IMG/VR virus record: IMGVR_UViG_3300046167_000984
Coordinates: 1 to 51,303 of that record
Source of the DNA: a virus
Strand: one strand, 5' to 3'
Length of the DNA: 51,303 nt
This document shows positions 13,952-46,536 of this stretch, one piece after another (the first letter of the stretch is position 1; each line of letters opens with the position of its first letter). The translations under genes and the position numbers were made by a program. The notes under the pieces are model-generated. The model saw only the letters and a list, made by a program, of their open reading frames with translations, was not told the origin of the DNA and ran no database searches.

Positions 13952-16900
13952 ATGGCATTTATCATTAAAGATCGTGTAAAAGAAGGTACTACTACTGCAG
14001 GGACAGGGGCTTTTACTTTAGGTGGCTCTTCTGCTACCTTTGATACATTTCAATCTTACATGTCTAACGGTGACACAACTTATTATGCTGTTGTACATAC
14101 CTCTTCTGGTGTTGACGAATGGGAAGTAGGCATTGGTACTTGGAATACGGGTAATACACTTTCTCGTACTACAGTATTAGCAGGGTCTAATGGTACTTCT
14201 GCTCAGAGCTTCTCTTCAGGTACTAAAGATATATTTATGACATATCCTGCTTCTAAGGCAGTATATACAAATGTTAATGGAGAAATAGACATTGATGGGG
14301 GTACTATTGACGGTACAACTATCGGTGCTGTTACTGCAGCTCCAGGTAACTTTACCTCAGGTGATTTTACAGGCGATGTTGATGTAGACGGTAATATACA
14401 TATCAGTGAATATGTAGACTTTGATCCCCAAGCATCACACCCAACACATCGTGAGGGTCGTCTATGGTATGATAATGTACATAAGACAATAAATTATCAC
14501 AGTGAAGACTCTAATGTTGTACACGAACTAGGTGTTGAAGAACATGCGCGTGTATATAATACTTCAGGCTCTACTATTAGTAAAGGTAAGCCTGTTTACT
14601 TCTCAGGTAGTCATAGCACTAATGGGACACATGTTCCTACAATAGCTTTAGCTAACGCTACATCTGAGAGTAAATATAAATCTGAAGGTATGACTGCATC
14701 AGATATACCTAATAACTCATATGGTTACATAGTTACTGCAGGTCTTCTAGACGGTATTGATACTAGTCACCTTAGTGTTGGTCAGGTTTTTACAGGAATT
14801 ACAGACGGTGCAACTCAGACTATGCCACCTGTATACCCAAACTATCCTATGTGCTTGGGTTTTGTTGTTAAGGTAGATAGTTCAGAAGGTGTTATATTCC
14901 TAGCACAACAAAACCATTCTATCAAAACATTCCGTGTTCAGATGGATCAACATATAGGTGGTAATCTTACTATTGATGGAAACCTTAACGTTACAGGTAC
15001 AACAAGTTCTACCTCTACAAGTGACGTTACTGCAGGTGCACCTTTCTACAGAGCTAATGAAGGCGATGCTATTGGTGAAGCAGGTACTACTTTTACAGGT
15101 ACAGGACTTGATGATGCTTTCTTCTCTGGTCATTATACAGGTACAGCCACTATTACTTACGATGTTAAGATTGATGGTGTAGGTACAGGTACGGGTGGTG
15201 TAGATACCTTTGCAGTGAGTCGTGATGGTTTTAATACTACATTCTCTAGCGCAAATGATATTACAGGTAATAAACAGCTTATACACTCTGGAGATAACAT
15301 TTATGTTGAGTTTGGTGCAACAACAGGTCACACACTAAATGATAACTGGGAAGGTGTAGCGTCTCCTGTTAATGTGGACTCTGGCTTCTGGACTAATCGT
15401 AACACGGGTGCATCGGGAGTTGGTTATACGCATATGGGAATATGGTATGATGCTTCTTCTTCTAAGTGGTATCTAACAGACGAGTATGACCCTGTACCAG
15501 CAGGTGCTATTGACAGATCTCATTCAAGTTATGTTAAGGCTACATTAGATGCAAATATTGAAGGTAACGTAACTGGTAATGTTACAGGTAATTTATCTGG
15601 TAATGCTACAACAGCTACAACACTAGAGTCACCTCGTAATATTGGTGGTGTTTCTTTTGATGGATCTTCTGACATAAACCTTGCTGGTGTTAACACATCA
15701 GGTAACCAAGACACTACAGGTAATGCAGCCACAGCTACAACATTAGAAACATCTCGTACCATACAACTAACTGGAGATGTAACAGGTAGTGCCACATTTG
15801 ATGGTTCTGCTGATGCTACTATTACAGCTGTTGTACAAGATGATAGTCACTCTCATGTTGTTTCTAATGTAGATGGATTACAGACTGCCTTAGACTCTAA
15901 AGCACCAACAGCACGTAATATTACTGCAGGTAATGGCTTGACAGGCGGTGGTGATTTAACTGCCAACCGTACATTAACTGTAGGTGGCGGTACTGGTGTT
16001 ACAGTTAATGCTAATGATATTGCTATTGGTCAGGATGTTGCTACTAGTGCTAACCCTACGTTTGCTAACATTACCTCAACAGGAAATATATCAGTAACAG
16101 GTACAGTAGATGGACGTGATGTTGCAGCAGACGGTACTAAACTCGACGGTATTGAATCTGGAGCAACAGGAGATCAAACCAACGCAGAGATACGCGCAGC
16201 CGTAGAAGCCGCTTCTGATAGTAACGTATTTACTGACGCTGATCATAGCAAATTAAACGCTATAGAAGCTAATGCTAAAGACGATCAGACTATTACTGCT
16301 GGTGCTGGTTTATCAGGTGGCGGTACTGGTAATGTAACTTTAAGTCATAGCGATACATCTTCTCAAGGTTCATCAAACAACTCTGGTAGAACATATATAC
16401 AAGATATTACTCTTGATACATATGGGCATGTCACTGGTTTGTCTACAGCTACAGAAACAGTAGTAGATACTAATACAACATATAGTGTAGGTGATGGAGG
16501 ACTTACACAAAAGAATTTTACAACAACTCTTAAGTCGAAGCTAGATGGAATAGAAAGTGGTGCAACTGCAGATCAGTCAGCATCTCAGATACTTACAGCT
16601 GTTAAAACTGTAGACGGTTCTGGCTCTGGTTTAGACGCTGACTTATTAGATGGGCAACAGGGTAGTTACTATTATAGCCCAGCAAATGTACCACCGGCTA
16701 GTCCTACTACAAATTTTTCAACTTCATCTTCTTATCCGTCAAGTCCATCTAACGGAGCTGTATTTTATAATACATCAGATAACATGGCACGTATGTATGT
16801 TGATGGCGCTTGGAAAGATATGTTTAATATTGCACCAACAACAGTTGGCGGTACAATAAATCTTAGTATTGCTAATAACCTCTCTAGTCCGTATAGCCAA

Positions 16901-17851
16901 TCTTTAACAAGTTATTTTTCAGATACTCAGACAGCTGCCTCTGATCTTTATTATGAGATATCAACAGGTACAACACCCCCTGGAGTTAGTATTTCAGGAA
17001 GTAATCTAGTCCACGATAATTCAAGTTTTTCACCTAATATCAACGCTGCTACTACATATAGCTTTGGTATAACTGCTAGGGATATGGACGGTGCTACGAG
17101 TATCCCTCAATCATTTAGCTTAACATTAGCTAAACCCCCCAACCCAAATATTAATTATATACCTAATTTTTCCACTCCTGATATTACTTATACAGCTACT
17201 ACAAATGTTATTATACCAACAAACCTAGCAGATTTTCAGTTATGTTATATTTACTTAGTAGGCGGAGGAGGCGGTGGTAATAGCTCCGAATATAGTGCTG
17301 GTTGGCGTTTCCAAGGACACGGCGGTAGCGCAAGAATGATATTATGTAGAGCAGACGTACTATCAGGTTCTACTGTCACAATAGGTGCTGGAAGACCACC
17401 TAGTGGACAGTGGCGATCAACATATGGTTCTATAACTTCTATCACCCTTGGAGGTACAACCTACGGTACAAATCACGGGAGTTCTAATCAGGTTATAATT
17501 CATCCAGGTACATATGATGTTAGTGCTTTGAGTACTACAGGTTTTTCTTTCAGCGCCGCTTCAGATACGAGCAGTCCTTCTGTAACTATGTCAGGAACAA
17601 GCATGACTAACTGGGGGAATGGTGTTGATGACGGTAGCCTTAGGGCTGACAGTGGTTCAAACACTACAAAAGTTTATTCTGCTGGTAATGGTTATGGTAG
17701 AGGTACAGGTGGCCCCGATTATTATGAAAACTCAACATATGCGGGTCGCGGTGCTACTGGTTTTAACCAATCTGGTCAAGCACCTGGTGGAGGCGGATCA
17801 TCCTATTCGGGTAGTGGCGCTACCGGTAGTTGTAGAATATACTTTTCATAG
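13952..17851 (+). CDS. tail fibre protein, 1299 aa
   Basis: A very long Gly/Thr/Ser/Asn-rich protein. The N-terminus (MAFIIKDRVKEGTTT) resembles virion-attachment domains of marine phage fibres. The middle carries beta-helix-type repeats such as GNVTGNVTGNLSG, and segments like GNAATATTLETSRTIQLTGD and NGLTGGGDLTANRTLTVGGG that recur in many phage fibres. A C-terminal part (about residue 1100 on) is glycine-rich, with YLVGGGGGGNS and GGGGSSYSG, and is probably the receptor-binding tip. The TTATTLE/DDSHSH/VDGLQ module is shared with the fibre at 23573-24997. Confidence 0.85.
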   Translation: MAFIIKDRVKEGTTTAGTGAFTLGGSSATFDTFQSYMSNGDTTYYAVVHTSSGVDEWEVGIGTWNTGNTLSRTTVLAGSNGTSAQSFSSGTKDIFMTYPASKAVYTNVNGEIDIDGGTIDGTTIGAVTAAPGNFTSGDFTGDVDVDGNIHISEYVDFDPQASHPTHREGRLWYDNVHKTINYHSEDSNVVHELGVEEHARVYNTSGSTISKGKPVYFSGSHSTNGTHVPTIALANATSESKYKSEGMTASDIPNNSYGYIVTAGLLDGIDTSHLSVGQVFTGITDGATQTMPPVYPNYPMCLGFVVKVDSSEGVIFLAQQNHSIKTFRVQMDQHIGGNLTIDGNLNVTGTTSSTSTSDVTAGAPFYRANEGDAIGEAGTTFTGTGLDDAFFSGHYTGTATITYDVKIDGVGTGTGGVDTFAVSRDGFNTTFSSANDITGNKQLIHSGDNIYVEFGATTGHTLNDNWEGVASPVNVDSGFWTNRNTGASGVGYTHMGIWYDASSSKWYLTDEYDPVPAGAIDRSHSSYVKATLDANIEGNVTGNVTGNLSGNATTATTLESPRNIGGVSFDGSSDINLAGVNTSGNQDTTGNAATATTLETSRTIQLTGDVTGSATFDGSADATITAVVQDDSHSHVVSNVDGLQTALDSKAPTARNITAGNGLTGGGDLTANRTLTVGGGTGVTVNANDIAIGQDVATSANPTFANITSTGNISVTGTVDGRDVAADGTKLDGIESGATGDQTNAEIRAAVEAASDSNVFTDADHSKLNAIEANAKDDQTITAGAGLSGGGTGNVTLSHSDTSSQGSSNNSGRTYIQDITLDTYGHVTGLSTATETVVDTNTTYSVGDGGLTQKNFTTTLKSKLDGIESGATADQSASQILTAVKTVDGSGSGLDADLLDGQQGSYYYSPANVPPASPTTNFSTSSSYPSSPSNGAVFYNTSDNMARMYVDGAWKDMFNIAPTTVGGTINLSIANNLSSPYSQSLTSYFSDTQTAASDLYYEISTGTTPPGVSISGSNLVHDNSSFSPNINAATTYSFGITARDMDGATSIPQSFSLTLAKPPNPNINYIPNFSTPDITYTATTNVIIPTNLADFQLCYIYLVGGGGGGNSSEYSAGWRFQGHGGSARMILCRADVLSGSTVTIGAGRPPSGQWRSTYGSITSITLGGTTYGTNHGSSNQVIIHPGTYDVSALSTTGFSFSAASDTSSPSVTMSGTSMTNWGNGVDDGSLRADSGSNTTKVYSAGNGYGRGTGGPDYYENSTYAGRGATGFNQSGQAPGGGGSSYSGSGATGSCRIYFS

Positions 17852-17866
17852 TTAAAGGAAAGATTA

Positions 17867-18199
17867 ATGAGCGATACAGATAGAGTAGTCTGGCACAGAA
17901 CAGAACGTGGTAGATGTATAGTTGTTGCCGCAGATGATGATTTGAGCCGTTGGCCTGATTATGAAGATGAAAAAGGTGAACATCATCTAGGTCACACGGA
18001 AGAAGAGATAGCAGAATTAGACAGGCTTTACAGAGAAGACAGAAACGCTGAACTAGCACGTACTGACTATATGATGTTACCAGATATGAACCCTACACAG
18101 GAGCTTATAGATTATCGCCAAGCTTTGAGAGATGCTCCAGATCACCCAGGTTGGCCTCTTGATTTACCTCCTTTAAATAGGTGGGGGCAGACAGATTGA
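17867..18199 (+). CDS. tail fibre assembly chaperone-like protein, 110 aa
   Basis: The C-terminal segment TQELIDYRQALRDAPDHPGW followed by PLDLPPLNRW matches the pattern YRqaLRDip...gwP of phage tail assembly chaperones (PF16778-like). In these, the motif sits at the end of a small acidic protein encoded after a fibre gene. The N-terminal part is acidic. It follows the long fibre gene by 15 bases, as expected for a protein that helps fold or attach the fibre. Its stop overlaps the halogenase-like start as TTGA. Confidence 0.6.
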   Translation: MSDTDRVVWHRTERGRCIVVAADDDLSRWPDYEDEKGEHHLGHTEEEIAELDRLYREDRNAELARTDYMMLPDMNPTQELIDYRQALRDAPDHPGWPLDLPPLNRWGQTD

Positions 18200-19359
18200 A
18201 GAAGCTTGCAGTGATTGGTAAAGGTACTGCTGGTTGTATGTCAGCAGCGTTTTACAAAAACAGAACAGATTGTGAAATTGATTGGTACTTTGACCCTAGT
18301 ATAAAACCACAGTCAGTAGGAGAGGGTTCTAATTTAGTATTACCTACTAGGTTGAATGAGTTTTTTGCATTTGGTGCAAGGGATTTTAATAAGGTGGATG
18401 CTACTGTAAAGACAGGTATATATAAACAAAATTGGGGTAAGGGTATGAAGCCTTTTCTTCATGATTTTCCTAGTCCACAAACAGCTTTACACTTTAGCGC
18501 ACCTAAACTACAAGAATATATAGAATTAAAACTAGAGAAGCATGTAAATATAAAAGCAGAAAACGTAGTAGCTAAAGACATAGATGCTGATTATATTGTA
18601 GATTGTACTGGTAAGCCTATTAATTATGATTCTCATAAACAATCAGATTATATACCTGTTAACTCTGTCTACGTCACCCAATGTTATTGGGATTATCCTA
18701 GGTTTAATCATACACTAACTATTGCAAGACCGTATGGTTGGGTGTTTGGTATTCCTTTAGCAAATCGCTGTTCTATTGGTTATATGTACAACAAGGATAT
18801 AAACACCTTAGAAGAAGTAATGGCTGATGTTCAAAATATATTTGATGAATATAATTTAGAACCTAGTAATGTTACCAATGCTTTCTCTTTCAAAAACTAT
18901 AAAAGAAGAAACAACATAGAAGGTAATATAGCCTATAATGGTAATGCTTCTTTCTTTTTAGAACCTTTAGAGGCTACATCTTTTGGTACAGTAGATGCGG
19001 TAAACACAATGATAGATAGACATTGGTTTCATGGTTCTAGTCTAGAGGTAACCAATGAACGCTACAATTATTGGATTGATGCAAACGAATCTATAATTAT
19101 GCTTCACTATTACGCTGGTTCAGATTTTAAAACACCCTTCTGGGATTATGCAGAAGAGCGCGGTAAAAAGTGTATAGAAAATTCTAGTGATTCTTTTAAA
19201 TATATGTTTGATAATTCAATAGCACCGACAGGTTTAGGGTCATACGATAGATACTTTCCAGAACAGTTTTTTCCATCTGAAGATTTTCAGGCAGTTTATG
19301 CTTCTTGGTGGGAAGGTTCATTTTCACAAAATAAGATAGGGCTTGGATTATGCCAGTAA
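18196..19359 (+). CDS. flavin-dependent (tryptophan) halogenase-like protein
   Basis: Counting from the in-frame GTG at 18181 (5 codons upstream), the FAD motif GKGTAG is at 13-18, and SVGEGSNLVLP matches the family's GE.t.p box. DATVKTGIYKQNW carries the lysine (about Lys77) aligned with the catalytic Lys79 of PrnA. PYGWVFGIPL is the WxWxIP box with Phe for the second Trp. FLEPLEAT matches the EPLEST motif with Ala for Ser. These enzymes use FADH2, O2 and halide to halogenate Trp or related indoles. At about 390 aa it is shorter than PrnA (about 540), so substrate contacts differ. TTG 18196 fits the overlap with the upstream stop. It sits between fibre genes; its substrate is unknown. Confidence 0.78.
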   Translation: MKKLAVIGKGTAGCMSAAFYKNRTDCEIDWYFDPSIKPQSVGEGSNLVLPTRLNEFFAFGARDFNKVDATVKTGIYKQNWGKGMKPFLHDFPSPQTALHFSAPKLQEYIELKLEKHVNIKAENVVAKDIDADYIVDCTGKPINYDSHKQSDYIPVNSVYVTQCYWDYPRFNHTLTIARPYGWVFGIPLANRCSIGYMYNKDINTLEEVMADVQNIFDEYNLEPSNVTNAFSFKNYKRRNNIEGNIAYNGNASFFLEPLEATSFGTVDAVNTMIDRHWFHGSSLEVTNERYNYWIDANESIIMLHYYAGSDFKTPFWDYAEERGKKCIENSSDSFKYMFDNSIAPTGLGSYDRYFPEQFFPSEDFQAVYASWWEGSFSQNKIGLGLCQ

Positions 19360-20297
19360 CTAGTAGCGGTGCAATATCTATGCAGGATATAATGACAGAG
19401 CTTGGCATCTCTGGTTCAACATCTTTGAATGATGCTGATGTTAGAGGTCTTATTGGTAAAGATGCAGGTGCTCAGATGTCTATGTCTGAGTGGTATGGCG
19501 CACAGGATGCATTCTCTTTTAATATTTCTACAGGTATAGATGGAGCTTCTACTTTAAGTACTTTAGCAACAGCTGCAGGTTGGGATGGAACAGTACCTAT
19601 CGTAATGACTGTAGATTCTGGTGTACACATTCGCTCAATGTCATCATCTACACCTTCTTTAACAATAGATGTTGCTGACTCCGAAGTCATAAACAATGGC
19701 GCTATCTTTGGACGTGGTGGTAATCATTCTACGGCAGGTGGTCACGCTATCAGCATAACTGCAACAGGCACTACAGTAACTAACAACTCTGGTGCATTCA
19801 TCGCAGGTGGCGGTGGTGGCGGTGGCGGTGCTGGAGGCGGTGGGGGCGCAGGTCAAAGTGCATATAACACAGCTTCAGGTAATGGTTCAACAACAGGTTA
19901 TATTTTTACTCCTGGGGGTATAACAGAAAATGTTTATTGGTCAGGATGTACAATAACTGGCACTGTTCTAGGCGGTACAGGCGGTGATCAAGGTGGCGGC
20001 GGTGTTACTCCTGCTACTACGTATATGGGTGGGTCTTGTAATAGTCCATCTTATTTTGTTTCGACTAATGGGTATGCAGGTGAACGTGCACAAGAATCCA
20101 ATGGCTATGTAGCTAATAACCCTGCCCAAGGTGGTTCTGTTCTAAGTGCAACATCAAACACAGACGGTGCAGGTTCTAACGGTGGTGGCGGTTGGGGTCG
20201 CTCTGGTGAAAACGGTGGTGGTGCTGGTGGTGATGCTATTAATGCAAGTCTATCATATACTTACACAAATAATGGACACGTCTACGGAAGCGTATAA
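19350..20297 (+). CDS. gp38-like adhesin or tail fibre tip with polyglycine motifs, 315 aa
   Basis: The N-terminus MPVTSSGAISMQDIMTELGI and MSMSEWYGA are recurrent in marine phage fibre proteins. The C-terminal half carries polyglycine stretches (GGGGGGGGAGGGGGAGQSAY, LGGTGGDQGGGG, GSNGGGGWGRSGENGGGAGG). These resemble the glycine motifs of T-even gp38 adhesins, where variable loops between Gly motifs bind the receptor. It overlaps the halogenase-like gene by 10 bases. Receptor binding is inferred from this architecture. Confidence 0.7.
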   Translation: MPVTSSGAISMQDIMTELGISGSTSLNDADVRGLIGKDAGAQMSMSEWYGAQDAFSFNISTGIDGASTLSTLATAAGWDGTVPIVMTVDSGVHIRSMSSSTPSLTIDVADSEVINNGAIFGRGGNHSTAGGHAISITATGTTVTNNSGAFIAGGGGGGGGAGGGGGAGQSAYNTASGNGSTTGYIFTPGGITENVYWSGCTITGTVLGGTGGDQGGGGVTPATTYMGGSCNSPSYFVSTNGYAGERAQESNGYVANNPAQGGSVLSATSNTDGAGSNGGGGWGRSGENGGGAGGDAINASLSYTYTNNGHVYGSV

Positions 20298-23572: not shown

Positions 23573-24997
23573 ATGGCAGGTTATACACGTCAAGACACTG
23601 GTAACAACATTGCTAACGGAAACGTTATTGATGCTGACGACTTTGATGCAGAGTACAATGCTCTTGAAGCAGGGTTTAACGCATCATCAGGACATAAACA
23701 CGATGGTACTTCTGGTGAAGGTGCACCTATTACTAAGGTAGGACCAGCGCAAGATGTAGTTGTTTCATCTTCAAATGTTGTACCTAAGACAACGAATACT
23801 TTAGATGTAGGATCTACAGGAGCTAGGTTTAAAGACGGGTTCTTTTCTGGTGGCCTTAGTATTGCTACTATTACAGCTACTGGAAATGTATCTGTAGGTG
23901 GTAATCTTAATGTTACAGGTAATACTACAATCTCTGGTAATCTTACTTTCGGTGATGCAGCTACAGATACCATAGACTTTCAAGCTGATGTAAATAGTAA
24001 CATAGTACCAGAAATAACAGGAAACTTTAGCTTAGGTACTTCTACACAACAATGGCAAAACCTGTGGTTAGACGGTACTGCAAATGTTGATACTCTTACA
24101 GTAGATGAGAACGCTACAGTAGCAGGTACGCTAGGTGTAACAGGTGTTACAACATCAGTTAGTGGATTTGTAGGTAATGTTACTGGTAACTTAACAGGCG
24201 CTGTTACTGGGGATGTTACTGGTAACTTAACAGGCGATGTAACAGGAGATGTTACAGGTTCTTTAACAGGTGATGTTGCTGGTAATACTATTGGTAATTT
24301 AACAGGTAATGTAACTGGTGATGTGACAGGAGATGTTACAGGTGACGTAACGGGTGACGTTACAGGTAATTTAACAGGCAATGTAACAGGTAATGTAACT
24401 GGCAATGTTACAGGTGGAGTTACTGGTAATGTAACAGGAAACCTAACAGGCAATGTAACAGGCAACCTGACAGGTGATGTTACTGGAGACGTTACAGGAG
24501 ACCTGACAGGTGGAGTTACTGGTAATGTAACAGGTAATGTGACAGGTAACGTAACAGGAAACCTAACAGGTAACGTAACAGGAGATGTTACTGGGGATGT
24601 TACAGGTGCTCTAACAGGTAATGCATCAACAGCAACGGCCTTAGCCACTTCTCGTACCATAGGTTTATCAGGTGATGTAACAGGGTCTGTTTCATTCGAC
24701 GGTACAAACAGCGTCACTATAGCAGCTACGATTGCAGATGATAGTCACAATCATACTATTGCTAATGTAGATGGCTTACAAACAGAAATAGATACTAAAG
24801 CAGAACTAGCTGGTTCTTCATCTCAGGCTTTCTCTGCTTCCACTCTTAACGCTACTACTGTAGACTTAGGTGACTGGACCATAACAGAGAGTTCTGGTAC
24901 TTTGTACTTTGCTACTAGTGGTACAAATAAGATGAAGTTAGATGCAAGTGGTAACATTACTGTAGCAGGTAACGTAACGGCGTTTGGCACTATCTAA
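23573..24997 (+). CDS. tail fibre protein with 37 VTG tetrapeptide repeats, 474 aa
   Basis: The N-terminus MAGYTRQDTGNNIANGNVID and DADDFDAEYNALEAGFN is typical of podoviral fibre attachment domains. Then comes a beta-rich region, the 37-unit repeat (24173-24616), and a C-terminal part with DDSHNHTIANVDGLQTEIDT shared with the other fibre gene. The protein ends MKLDASGNITVAGNVTAFGT, a short beta tail. The repeats probably form a trimeric beta-helical shaft. It lies immediately after tail tubular protein B, like the T7 fibre gene. Confidence 0.85.
   Translation: MAGYTRQDTGNNIANGNVIDADDFDAEYNALEAGFNASSGHKHDGTSGEGAPITKVGPAQDVVVSSSNVVPKTTNTLDVGSTGARFKDGFFSGGLSIATITATGNVSVGGNLNVTGNTTISGNLTFGDAATDTIDFQADVNSNIVPEITGNFSLGTSTQQWQNLWLDGTANVDTLTVDENATVAGTLGVTGVTTSVSGFVGNVTGNLTGAVTGDVTGNLTGDVTGDVTGSLTGDVAGNTIGNLTGNVTGDVTGDVTGDVTGDVTGNLTGNVTGNVTGNVTGGVTGNVTGNLTGNVTGNLTGDVTGDVTGDLTGGVTGNVTGNVTGNVTGNLTGNVTGDVTGDVTGALTGNASTATALATSRTIGLSGDVTGSVSFDGTNSVTIAATIADDSHNHTIANVDGLQTEIDTKAELAGSSSQAFSASTLNATTVDLGDWTITESSGTLYFATSGTNKMKLDASGNITVAGNVTAFGTI
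24173..24616 (+). repeat. 37 tandem 12-base units (GNVT/GDVT/GNLT)
   Basis: The segment is 444 bases and consists of 37 uninterrupted 12-base units, mostly GNVT, GDVT and GNLT. Rare units are GAVT, GSLT, GDVA, GNTI, GGVT, GDLT and GALT. Synonymous differences between units show it is old rather than freshly expanded. It is a likely site of slippage or recombination and of assembly collapse. Confidence 0.9.
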
Positions 24998-45639: not shown

Positions 45640-46009
45640 TCCCTCTCGCTGATAGTGCTTTAGATGCACCACTCAATGTATTTACTATATAAGGTTTCAC
45701 CGATTGTATATTCTTATGTCCTGTTACCTGCATGATATTAGCTAAGTCAACCCCACCTTCCATCATCTCAGTCACAGCAGTACGGCGTAAGTCCATAGCT
45801 GTAAGCTCTCTAGGTAGATTAGCTTCGTCCAGTACCTCATTGATAAGTAAGGATATTTCACTCTTATCGTAGGGTGTGTATGCCCCTGCCTCTTGGCTTA
45901 ACTCTAGGTGCTACATAATCCTGGAATCCAAAGTCTTCCTTCTGTTGTCTCAACATCTCACACAACCCATTAGATATAGGTAAGTGTATCTCAGCATTAC
46001 GTTTACTTT
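45617..46009 (-). pseudogene. tyrosine integrase C-terminal part in shifted frames
   Basis: Two successive frames continue the integrase. The first reads QSKRNAEIHLPISNGLCEML and EDFGFQDYVAPRVKPR, with the core Lys in SKR. The second reads GAYTPYDKSEISLLINEVLD, then MDLRRTAVTEMMEGG (the second Arg box), VTGHKNIQSVKPYIVNTLSG (the His and the nucleophilic Tyr) and ends DESEK. Each junction requires dropping one base, near 46007-46009 (TTT) and 45883-45886 (CCCC). All catalytic residues survive except that the HxxR box has Asp for His. The repaired ORF is 305 aa. Confidence 0.75.
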
Positions 46010-46536
46010 GTGTCTAGGTCTAAGCGACACTGATCTAAGTCTAAGGTATCCCAAGTCATAACTCTCATGTCGCCTATGCGCTGACCCCAATCGTATGCCA
46101 TGTGTACTATAAGACTAATGCTACGCCATCTGAAGTCACTGTAACCTGTCTCAAGAAAGGTTTTGATCTGATCTCTACTCCAGTATACACGTCTTTGTTT
46201 ACTAGACTTGGTAGGTACAAGTGCTACTGGATTGTGTATCATTACATCCTGTCTCATGGAATACTTCCAAGCAGCAGACAGTACAGACTTACGATAGTTA
46301 GCAGTACGTATACCTGTCTTGAGCCATATGTCATACGCTTGTATAAGATGTCTTACTTTAATATTAGTACAACGATATTCACCAAGGGTCTTACCTTCCA
46401 CAGATGTGCTTATCACAGACGATAGATGTGTTTCATAATCTTTTTGAGATGCACCAGATAGTCTAGCAAAAGCAGGTGATACAAGATAGAACTCTATAAT
46501 GTCACACAACTTAGCGTTACCCTTGGGTATTTTCAT
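46003..46536 (-). CDS. int: tyrosine site-specific integrase, N-terminal and first catalytic part
   Basis: A core-binding helical N-terminal region (SGASQKDYETHLSSVISTSV, YRKSVLSAAWKYSMRQDVMI) is followed by the first catalytic Arg box, YDWGQRIGDMRVMTWDTLDL. The ORF then stops after CRLDLDTK, in the middle of the catalytic domain. The rest is encoded in shifted frames to 45617. AAGGGAAGG lies ahead of the ATG. Intact, it would catalyse integration into a bacterial attachment site. As read, it is truncated and inactive. Confidence 0.85.
   Translation of the reverse strand: MKIPKGNAKLCDIIEFYLVSPAFARLSGASQKDYETHLSSVISTSVEGKTLGEYRCTNIKVRHLIQAYDIWLKTGIRTANYRKSVLSAAWKYSMRQDVMIHNPVALVPTKSSKQRRVYWSRDQIKTFLETGYSDFRWRSISLIVHMAYDWGQRIGDMRVMTWDTLDLDQCRLDLDTK

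Follow-up and report, generated by a model that had tools for sequence, protein, structure and literature searches.

Chemistry that involves hypohalous acid together with a lysine and a glutamate of the enzyme is established for the flavin-dependent halogenase family. The enzyme described here, which is encoded by a marine virus and is a new member of this known superfamily, resembles SttH, PrnA, and RebH in fold (Z scores of 30–40), in its GxGxxG motif, in its catalytic Lys and Glu residues, and in the presence of a VGE strap. It differs from these proteins in length (387 amino acids versus 490–538, with ~115 residues lacking), in the possession of WxFxIP and EPxEAT instead of the canonical WxWxIP and EPLEST motifs, and in being encoded together with tail fibre genes rather than in a biosynthetic cluster.

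MibH, SrpI, and ChlH halogenate Trp residues inside ribosomal peptides, and ChlH also halogenates an internal Trp of a protein of 1054 amino acids (PMC12518702, PMC10286304). The fold of MibH is similar to that of the present enzyme (Z score of 33). These three enzymes belong to RiPP clusters that contain a precursor peptide, whereas the substrate proposed here is a large structural protein of the virion that is accompanied by a chaperone. Phage-encoded members of the same superfamily include VirX1, an iodinating enzyme of a cyanophage, and the cyanophage "prnA," and some of the cyanophage genes have the same motif variants as the present enzyme. VirX1, however, consists of 531 amino acids and is only distantly related (3.6e-8 in phmmer), and the cyanophage halogenase genes that we examined have other neighbours and lack the pair of fibre tip and chaperone described below. 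The cyanophage "tryptophan halogenase" genes have been without a natural substrate for more than a decade, with antibiotic protection having been offered as speculation (PMC2984593).

With regard to the fibre, the closest described system is gp24 of phage Pam3 with its chaperone gp25, in which the tip has a similar fold (Z score of 10) and is likewise followed by the gene for a Tfa-type chaperone. The gp38 adhesin of S16 has been reported to be similar to that of Pam3. No halogenase has been described for the Pam3 and S16 systems, and two invariant tryptophans are a feature of the halogenase-linked tips.

The halogenase gene and its product

The stretch of DNA that we analysed (the window) is a virus record of IMG/VR with a length of 51,303 bases. 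Its nearest match, Roseobacter phage CRP-207, has 55% of the first 25 kb in common with it at ~80% identity. At the position corresponding to ~13.9–21.0 kb of the window, CRP-207 carries another fibre cassette, in which a relative of the chaperone is present and the halogenase is absent. The equivalent region of the window begins with a gene on the plus strand (13952–17851) for a tail fibre protein of 1299 amino acids, identified by its matches to tail fibre PHROGs, with a putative Gly-rich receptor-binding tip at its COOH-terminus. Directly 3' of this gene lies that for a tail fibre assembly chaperone of the Phage_tail_APC or Tfa-like type (17867–18199, plus strand; 110 amino acids), as indicated by gene order, by a PHROG match to tail fibre assembly proteins, and by a match to PF16778 (5e-9; 36.3 bits versus a cut-off of 26.6). 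The halogenase gene (18196–19359, plus strand) overlaps the stop codon of the chaperone gene by 4 nucleotides (TTGA) and the start of a gene for a Gly-rich tail protein (19350–20297, plus strand) by 10 nucleotides; it is thus squeezed into the fibre cassette with both neighbours overlapping, as the initial annotation had stated. Elsewhere in the window, positions 23573–24997 encode a fibre-like protein that consists mostly of V-T-G-[DN] repeats and has a MAGYTRQDTG segment at its start, and positions 46003–46536 of the minus strand encode an integrase-like protein of 177 amino acids (PHROG 1, 1e-17). The nearest relatives of the virus are isolates of Roseobacter phages.

The open reading frame at 18196–19359 was confirmed as a real and intact flavin-dependent halogenase gene. 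It starts with TTG at 18196, a position at which relatives carry ATG, with an in-frame GTG being located upstream at 18181, and it ends with TAA at 19357–19359. The enzyme class assigned by the initial annotation was borne out by evidence that agreed: a match to Pfam Trp_halogenase (PF04820; 9.4e-30, 104 bits versus a curated cut-off of 21), a match to PHROG 2928, "tryptophan halogenase" (2e-63), the fold of an AlphaFold model (pLDDT of 92.7), and the aligned catalytic residues. The model matched SttH (5hy5) with a Z score of 40.1 over 363 residues (rmsd of 2.8) and also matched MibH (Z score of 33.4) and VirX1 (Z score of 28.8). The protein contains GKGTAG as the flavin-binding GxGxxG motif, VGE, K72, WVFGIP, and FFLEPLEAT. 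In an alignment with RebH, E43 of the VGE strap (codon at 18322–18324, plus strand) corresponded to E49, the catalytic K72 (18409–18411, plus strand) to K79, which is also K79 of PrnA, and the catalytic E259 (18970–18972, plus strand) to E357.

The enzyme is short because it lacks ~115 residues from the stretch that separates the Lys strand from its second half, a gap that may open the active site. The ratio dN/dS was ~0.1–0.17 between close relatives, a clear indication at the codon level of purifying selection on the halogenase.

A scan of viral contigs for the halogenase yielded 49 loci, and 36 sequences were aligned. E43, K72, and E259 are invariant in this alignment, and the motifs GxGTxG, VGE, GWxFxxP, and EPxEAT, together with K72, are invariant or nearly so. 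The WxWxIP box reads WVFGIP in the window enzyme, with the second Trp being replaced by Phe in all relatives, and the position of S358 of RebH is occupied by A260. Similar variants occur in cyanophage halogenases that are encoded outside fibre cassettes, beside talC, gp33, or other genes. Judged from these sequences, the "modified" motifs are a feature of the family. The initial annotation had taken the W-to-F and S-to-A changes as a sign of an unusual substrate; given that they are common to all 36 relatives and that similar variants are found in cyanophage enzymes of other genomic settings, they provide no pointer to the substrate of the window enzyme, and the inference of an unusual substrate on these grounds was rejected.

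The altered tryptophan box and EPLEST tunnel motif might instead mean that the enzyme is a flavin monooxygenase or another oxidase that acts on the tip, with WVFGIP lacking the second Trp, which is said to block monooxygenation, and with Ala in place of S358 of RebH. The halogenase-specific Lys and Glu residues are invariant in the 36 relatives, however, the fold match is to halogenases, and variants and absences of WxWxIP occur in active halogenases, the motif being absent, for example, from Bmp5 (PMC8407142). We consider an oxidase very improbable.

Gene order in close and distant relatives

One clade of the halogenases (support of 100/100) showed a constant gene order: a fibre gene with a Gly-rich COOH-terminal tip, a chaperone gene (for ~90–115 amino acids), and the halogenase gene. 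The chaperone gene was immediately upstream of the halogenase gene in all 26 loci whose contigs show the chaperone side (L008–L032 plus the window), and the tip preceded the chaperone in all 24 loci whose contigs reach far enough. L033 and L034 are cut off upstream; in L033, which lies inside the fibre clade, no recognisable chaperone was apparent in the 113 bases upstream of the halogenase. The NH2-terminal regions of the fibre and the downstream genes vary among the loci of the clade. The genes downstream in the window were seen again in a subset of relatives only, and loci L012–L023, L028, and L031 have backbones other than that of the window; the trio is preserved across unrelated phage backbones. 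Sequence identities for halogenase, chaperone, and tip were correlated (Mantel rho of 0.64, with 0 of 2000 permutations as high), as would be expected if the three travel together.

The initial annotation had described the downstream polyglycine protein as coupled to the halogenase by an overlap, but homologues of this protein, which has no Pfam match, were found only in L008–L011 and L024–L027. It is absent from most relatives, in contrast to the constant tip and chaperone upstream, and was therefore ruled out as a conserved partner.

Loci without the halogenase were sampled with the chaperone as query. This search returned at least 72 further loci without the tip, and a halogenase was present in none of those listed. 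The exception among the listed loci was L131, in which tip and chaperone occur together without the halogenase. A query from L131 led to five more distinct loci of this type (L140, L141/142, L143, L144/145, and L146), giving six halogenase-free loci in all with close relatives of both tip and chaperone. When three groups of halogenase-linked tips served as queries, every contig returned carried the halogenase, with the result that no loss of the halogenase beside a tip of the linked type was seen in these three scans. In five loci (L087, L091, L096, L118, and L122), genes for tail fibre chaperones are arrayed in groups of three to five within 5–8 kb, possibly representing exchangeable tip-chaperone cassettes.

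The expectation that other phages would keep the halogenase beside fibre genes held for these close relatives and failed for relatives with an identity of ≤51%, in which its placement is unrelated to fibre genes. The neighbours of these more distant genes are the replication genes gp59/gp32, 2OG-Fe(II) oxygenases, epimerases, glycosyltransferases, a methyltransferase, or a carbamoyltransferase, and the halogenase genes sometimes form tandem pairs. Fibre linkage is confined to one halogenase clade, linkage of the entire subfamily having been ruled out by these other neighbours, and the variety of the neighbours means that the substrate may differ among clades. The closest protein from an isolate, that of cyanophage S-RIM4 (QBQ74919.1, annotated as hypothetical; L001:7995–9158), is 48.7% identical to the window enzyme. 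Its gene is located a few genes ahead of those for a structural protein and a tail fibre, and in S-ShM2 (L007) the halogenase gene directly precedes genes for a structural protein and tail fibres. With two patterns as query, no halogenase relatives were found in bacterial or archaeal genomes.

Several arrangements were observed outside the linked clade. L036 (3909–9413), L055, and L056 contain a Phage_tail_APC gene, three tandem genes for Cys- and Gly-rich adhesins, the halogenase gene, and a gene for 327 amino acids without a Pfam match, and thus show a second, separate adhesin-halogenase arrangement. L051 encodes a Gly-rich protein three genes upstream of its halogenase. Tandem halogenase pairs are present at L042:6827–9149, L044:6781–9200, and L049:7983–10296, and in L037 and L038 with a more distant copy, mostly on large phage contigs; they suggest duplication and two substrates. 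Genes for 2OG-Fe(II) oxygenases are located beside or near the halogenase gene in three divergent phages (L046:9208–10429, L047:6248–6829, and L051:5325–5927), and such a gene also adjoins the halogenase gene of HTVC008M.

Tryptophan residues of the fibre tip

The window halogenase adjoins a ribosomally made fibre tip that contains two invariant Trp residues and is its candidate substrate. The tip domain (17138–17848, plus strand; 237 amino acids) was modelled with AlphaFold (pLDDT of 88.7) as a β-sandwich with a Gly-rich lattice. The model matched the Pam3 fibre (7ypx) with a Z score of 10.1 over 153 residues (rmsd of 3.4) and the tail tip of Bxb1 with a Z score of 10.2. The match to Pfam Gly_rich_2 (2e-4, 21.9 bits) was below the cut-off of 24.3, and a profile search of the PDB with the tip gave no match, the likeness being seen by fold comparison only. 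In Pam3, Gly-rich loops reach a variable distal end that has been proposed as the host-binding site, and the Tfa-type chaperone shields these loops in assembly (PMC9608196).

The first Trp, W56 of the tip or W1118 of the fibre (codon at 17303–17305, plus strand), closes the first inter-glycine loop (NSSEYSAGW), and the second, W92 or W1154 (17411–17413, plus strand), lies within the second such loop (PPSGQW). By analogy with Pam3, these loop positions would place both residues in distal loops of the host-binding type. W56 was present in 17 of 17 halogenase-linked tips compared with none of the six halogenase-free tips. Both residues are invariant in an alignment of 16 halogenase-linked tips, in which the only other invariant residues are Gly, one Pro, and one Ser. 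At the corresponding positions, the six halogenase-free tips show either a gap or I, T, Y, or N, or else the loop contains no Trp at all, the loop corresponding to that of W92 lacking Trp in all six. An automatic alignment of all tips gave W56 in 19 of 19 linked tips and W92 in 16 of 19, versus 0 of 6 halogenase-free tips in each case; the three misses for W92 (L024, L026, and L031) have a Trp one or two columns off and are all aligned in the halogenase-only alignment. The motif W-x(1-3)-GG was found in none of 24 Gly-rich proteins from halogenase-free loci.

The linked tips are only 26–51% identical to that of the window. With dN/dS values of ~0.3–1, the tip evolves rapidly compared with the conserved halogenase, and yet W56 and W92 never change, which renders their fixity striking. 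The halogenase-linked and halogenase-free tips are split by one branch, however, so that the contrast in tryptophans amounts to a single evolutionary event. Such a single split would also account for the association if the halogenase were an auxiliary gene that was captured once by a tip at a recombination hot spot, the fibre locus, and was then swapped by way of flanking homology, the tryptophan pattern being due to chance; the varied genome positions of the cyanophage relatives fit this notion as well. Given that neither the order of the genes nor the two tryptophans have been lost while tips of the clade have diverged to 26–51% identity, and that no halogenase loss was found beside such a tip in the three tip scans, we consider mere hitch-hiking distinctly unlikely.

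The tryptophans might have a role in structure or binding that requires no modification. As plain receptor-binding residues, they would be compatible with an enzyme that acts late in infection on a small molecule or on the host surface, for example by altering a receptor or blocking superinfection, with functions that target the receptor being exchanged together. Tryptophan halogenases usually take free indoles, and VirX1, the sole characterised phage halogenase, accepts many small aromatics (PMC8407142). The location of relatives near genes for sugar modification, methyltransferases, and carbamoyltransferases also fits surface or small-molecule chemistry. Such a target nevertheless leaves unexplained both the constant position of the chaperone between tip and enzyme and the two invariant residues in a rapidly evolving tip, and we regard it as rather unlikely.

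A possible role in fibre assembly

The suggestion in the initial annotation that the enzyme modifies the virion has strong circumstantial support from these observations. We judge the chances to be evenly balanced that the enzyme is dedicated to the receptor-binding tip of its own virus and halogenates W1118 and W1154 during fibre assembly, with the step from linkage to substrate being about as probable as not. The fuller proposal, in which a phage enzyme attaches halogen to tryptophans of the loops with which its own tail fibre binds the host, and in which tip, chaperone, and halogenase are carried and exchanged as one cassette, falls slightly short of an even chance.

In halogenation of the tip, the enzyme would be made late, by translational coupling to the fibre chaperone. 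A host flavin reductase would supply reduced FAD, which together with O2 and chloride or bromide of seawater would give rise to hypohalous acid; Lys72 would steer this acid to indole side chains, with Glu259 acting as the base. The proposed targets are W1118 and W1154 in a tip that is nascent or held by the chaperone, before or during chaperone-assisted trimerisation. The resulting halo-tryptophans may modulate the interaction with the receptor or afford protection to the loops.

As far as our searches show, the cassette and the linked tryptophans are new here. Examination of 50,697 records of cultured phages by tblastn with three tips revealed no tip relative, a tblastn search of cultured phages with one halogenase-free tip gave no match, and no report of a halogenase joined to a fibre or to virion modification was found in the literature searched.

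The linked clade points to a specific substrate that can be tested down to individual residues. Even if the proposed modification proves false, the strict linkage of tip, chaperone, and halogenase in marine phages constitutes an undescribed cassette that needs explanation. If it is true, the enzyme would be a natural example of tryptophan halogenation at the protein level, with a large folded protein as its partner, and would be of use in the labelling of proteins; halogenation would also join the chemistry of host recognition.
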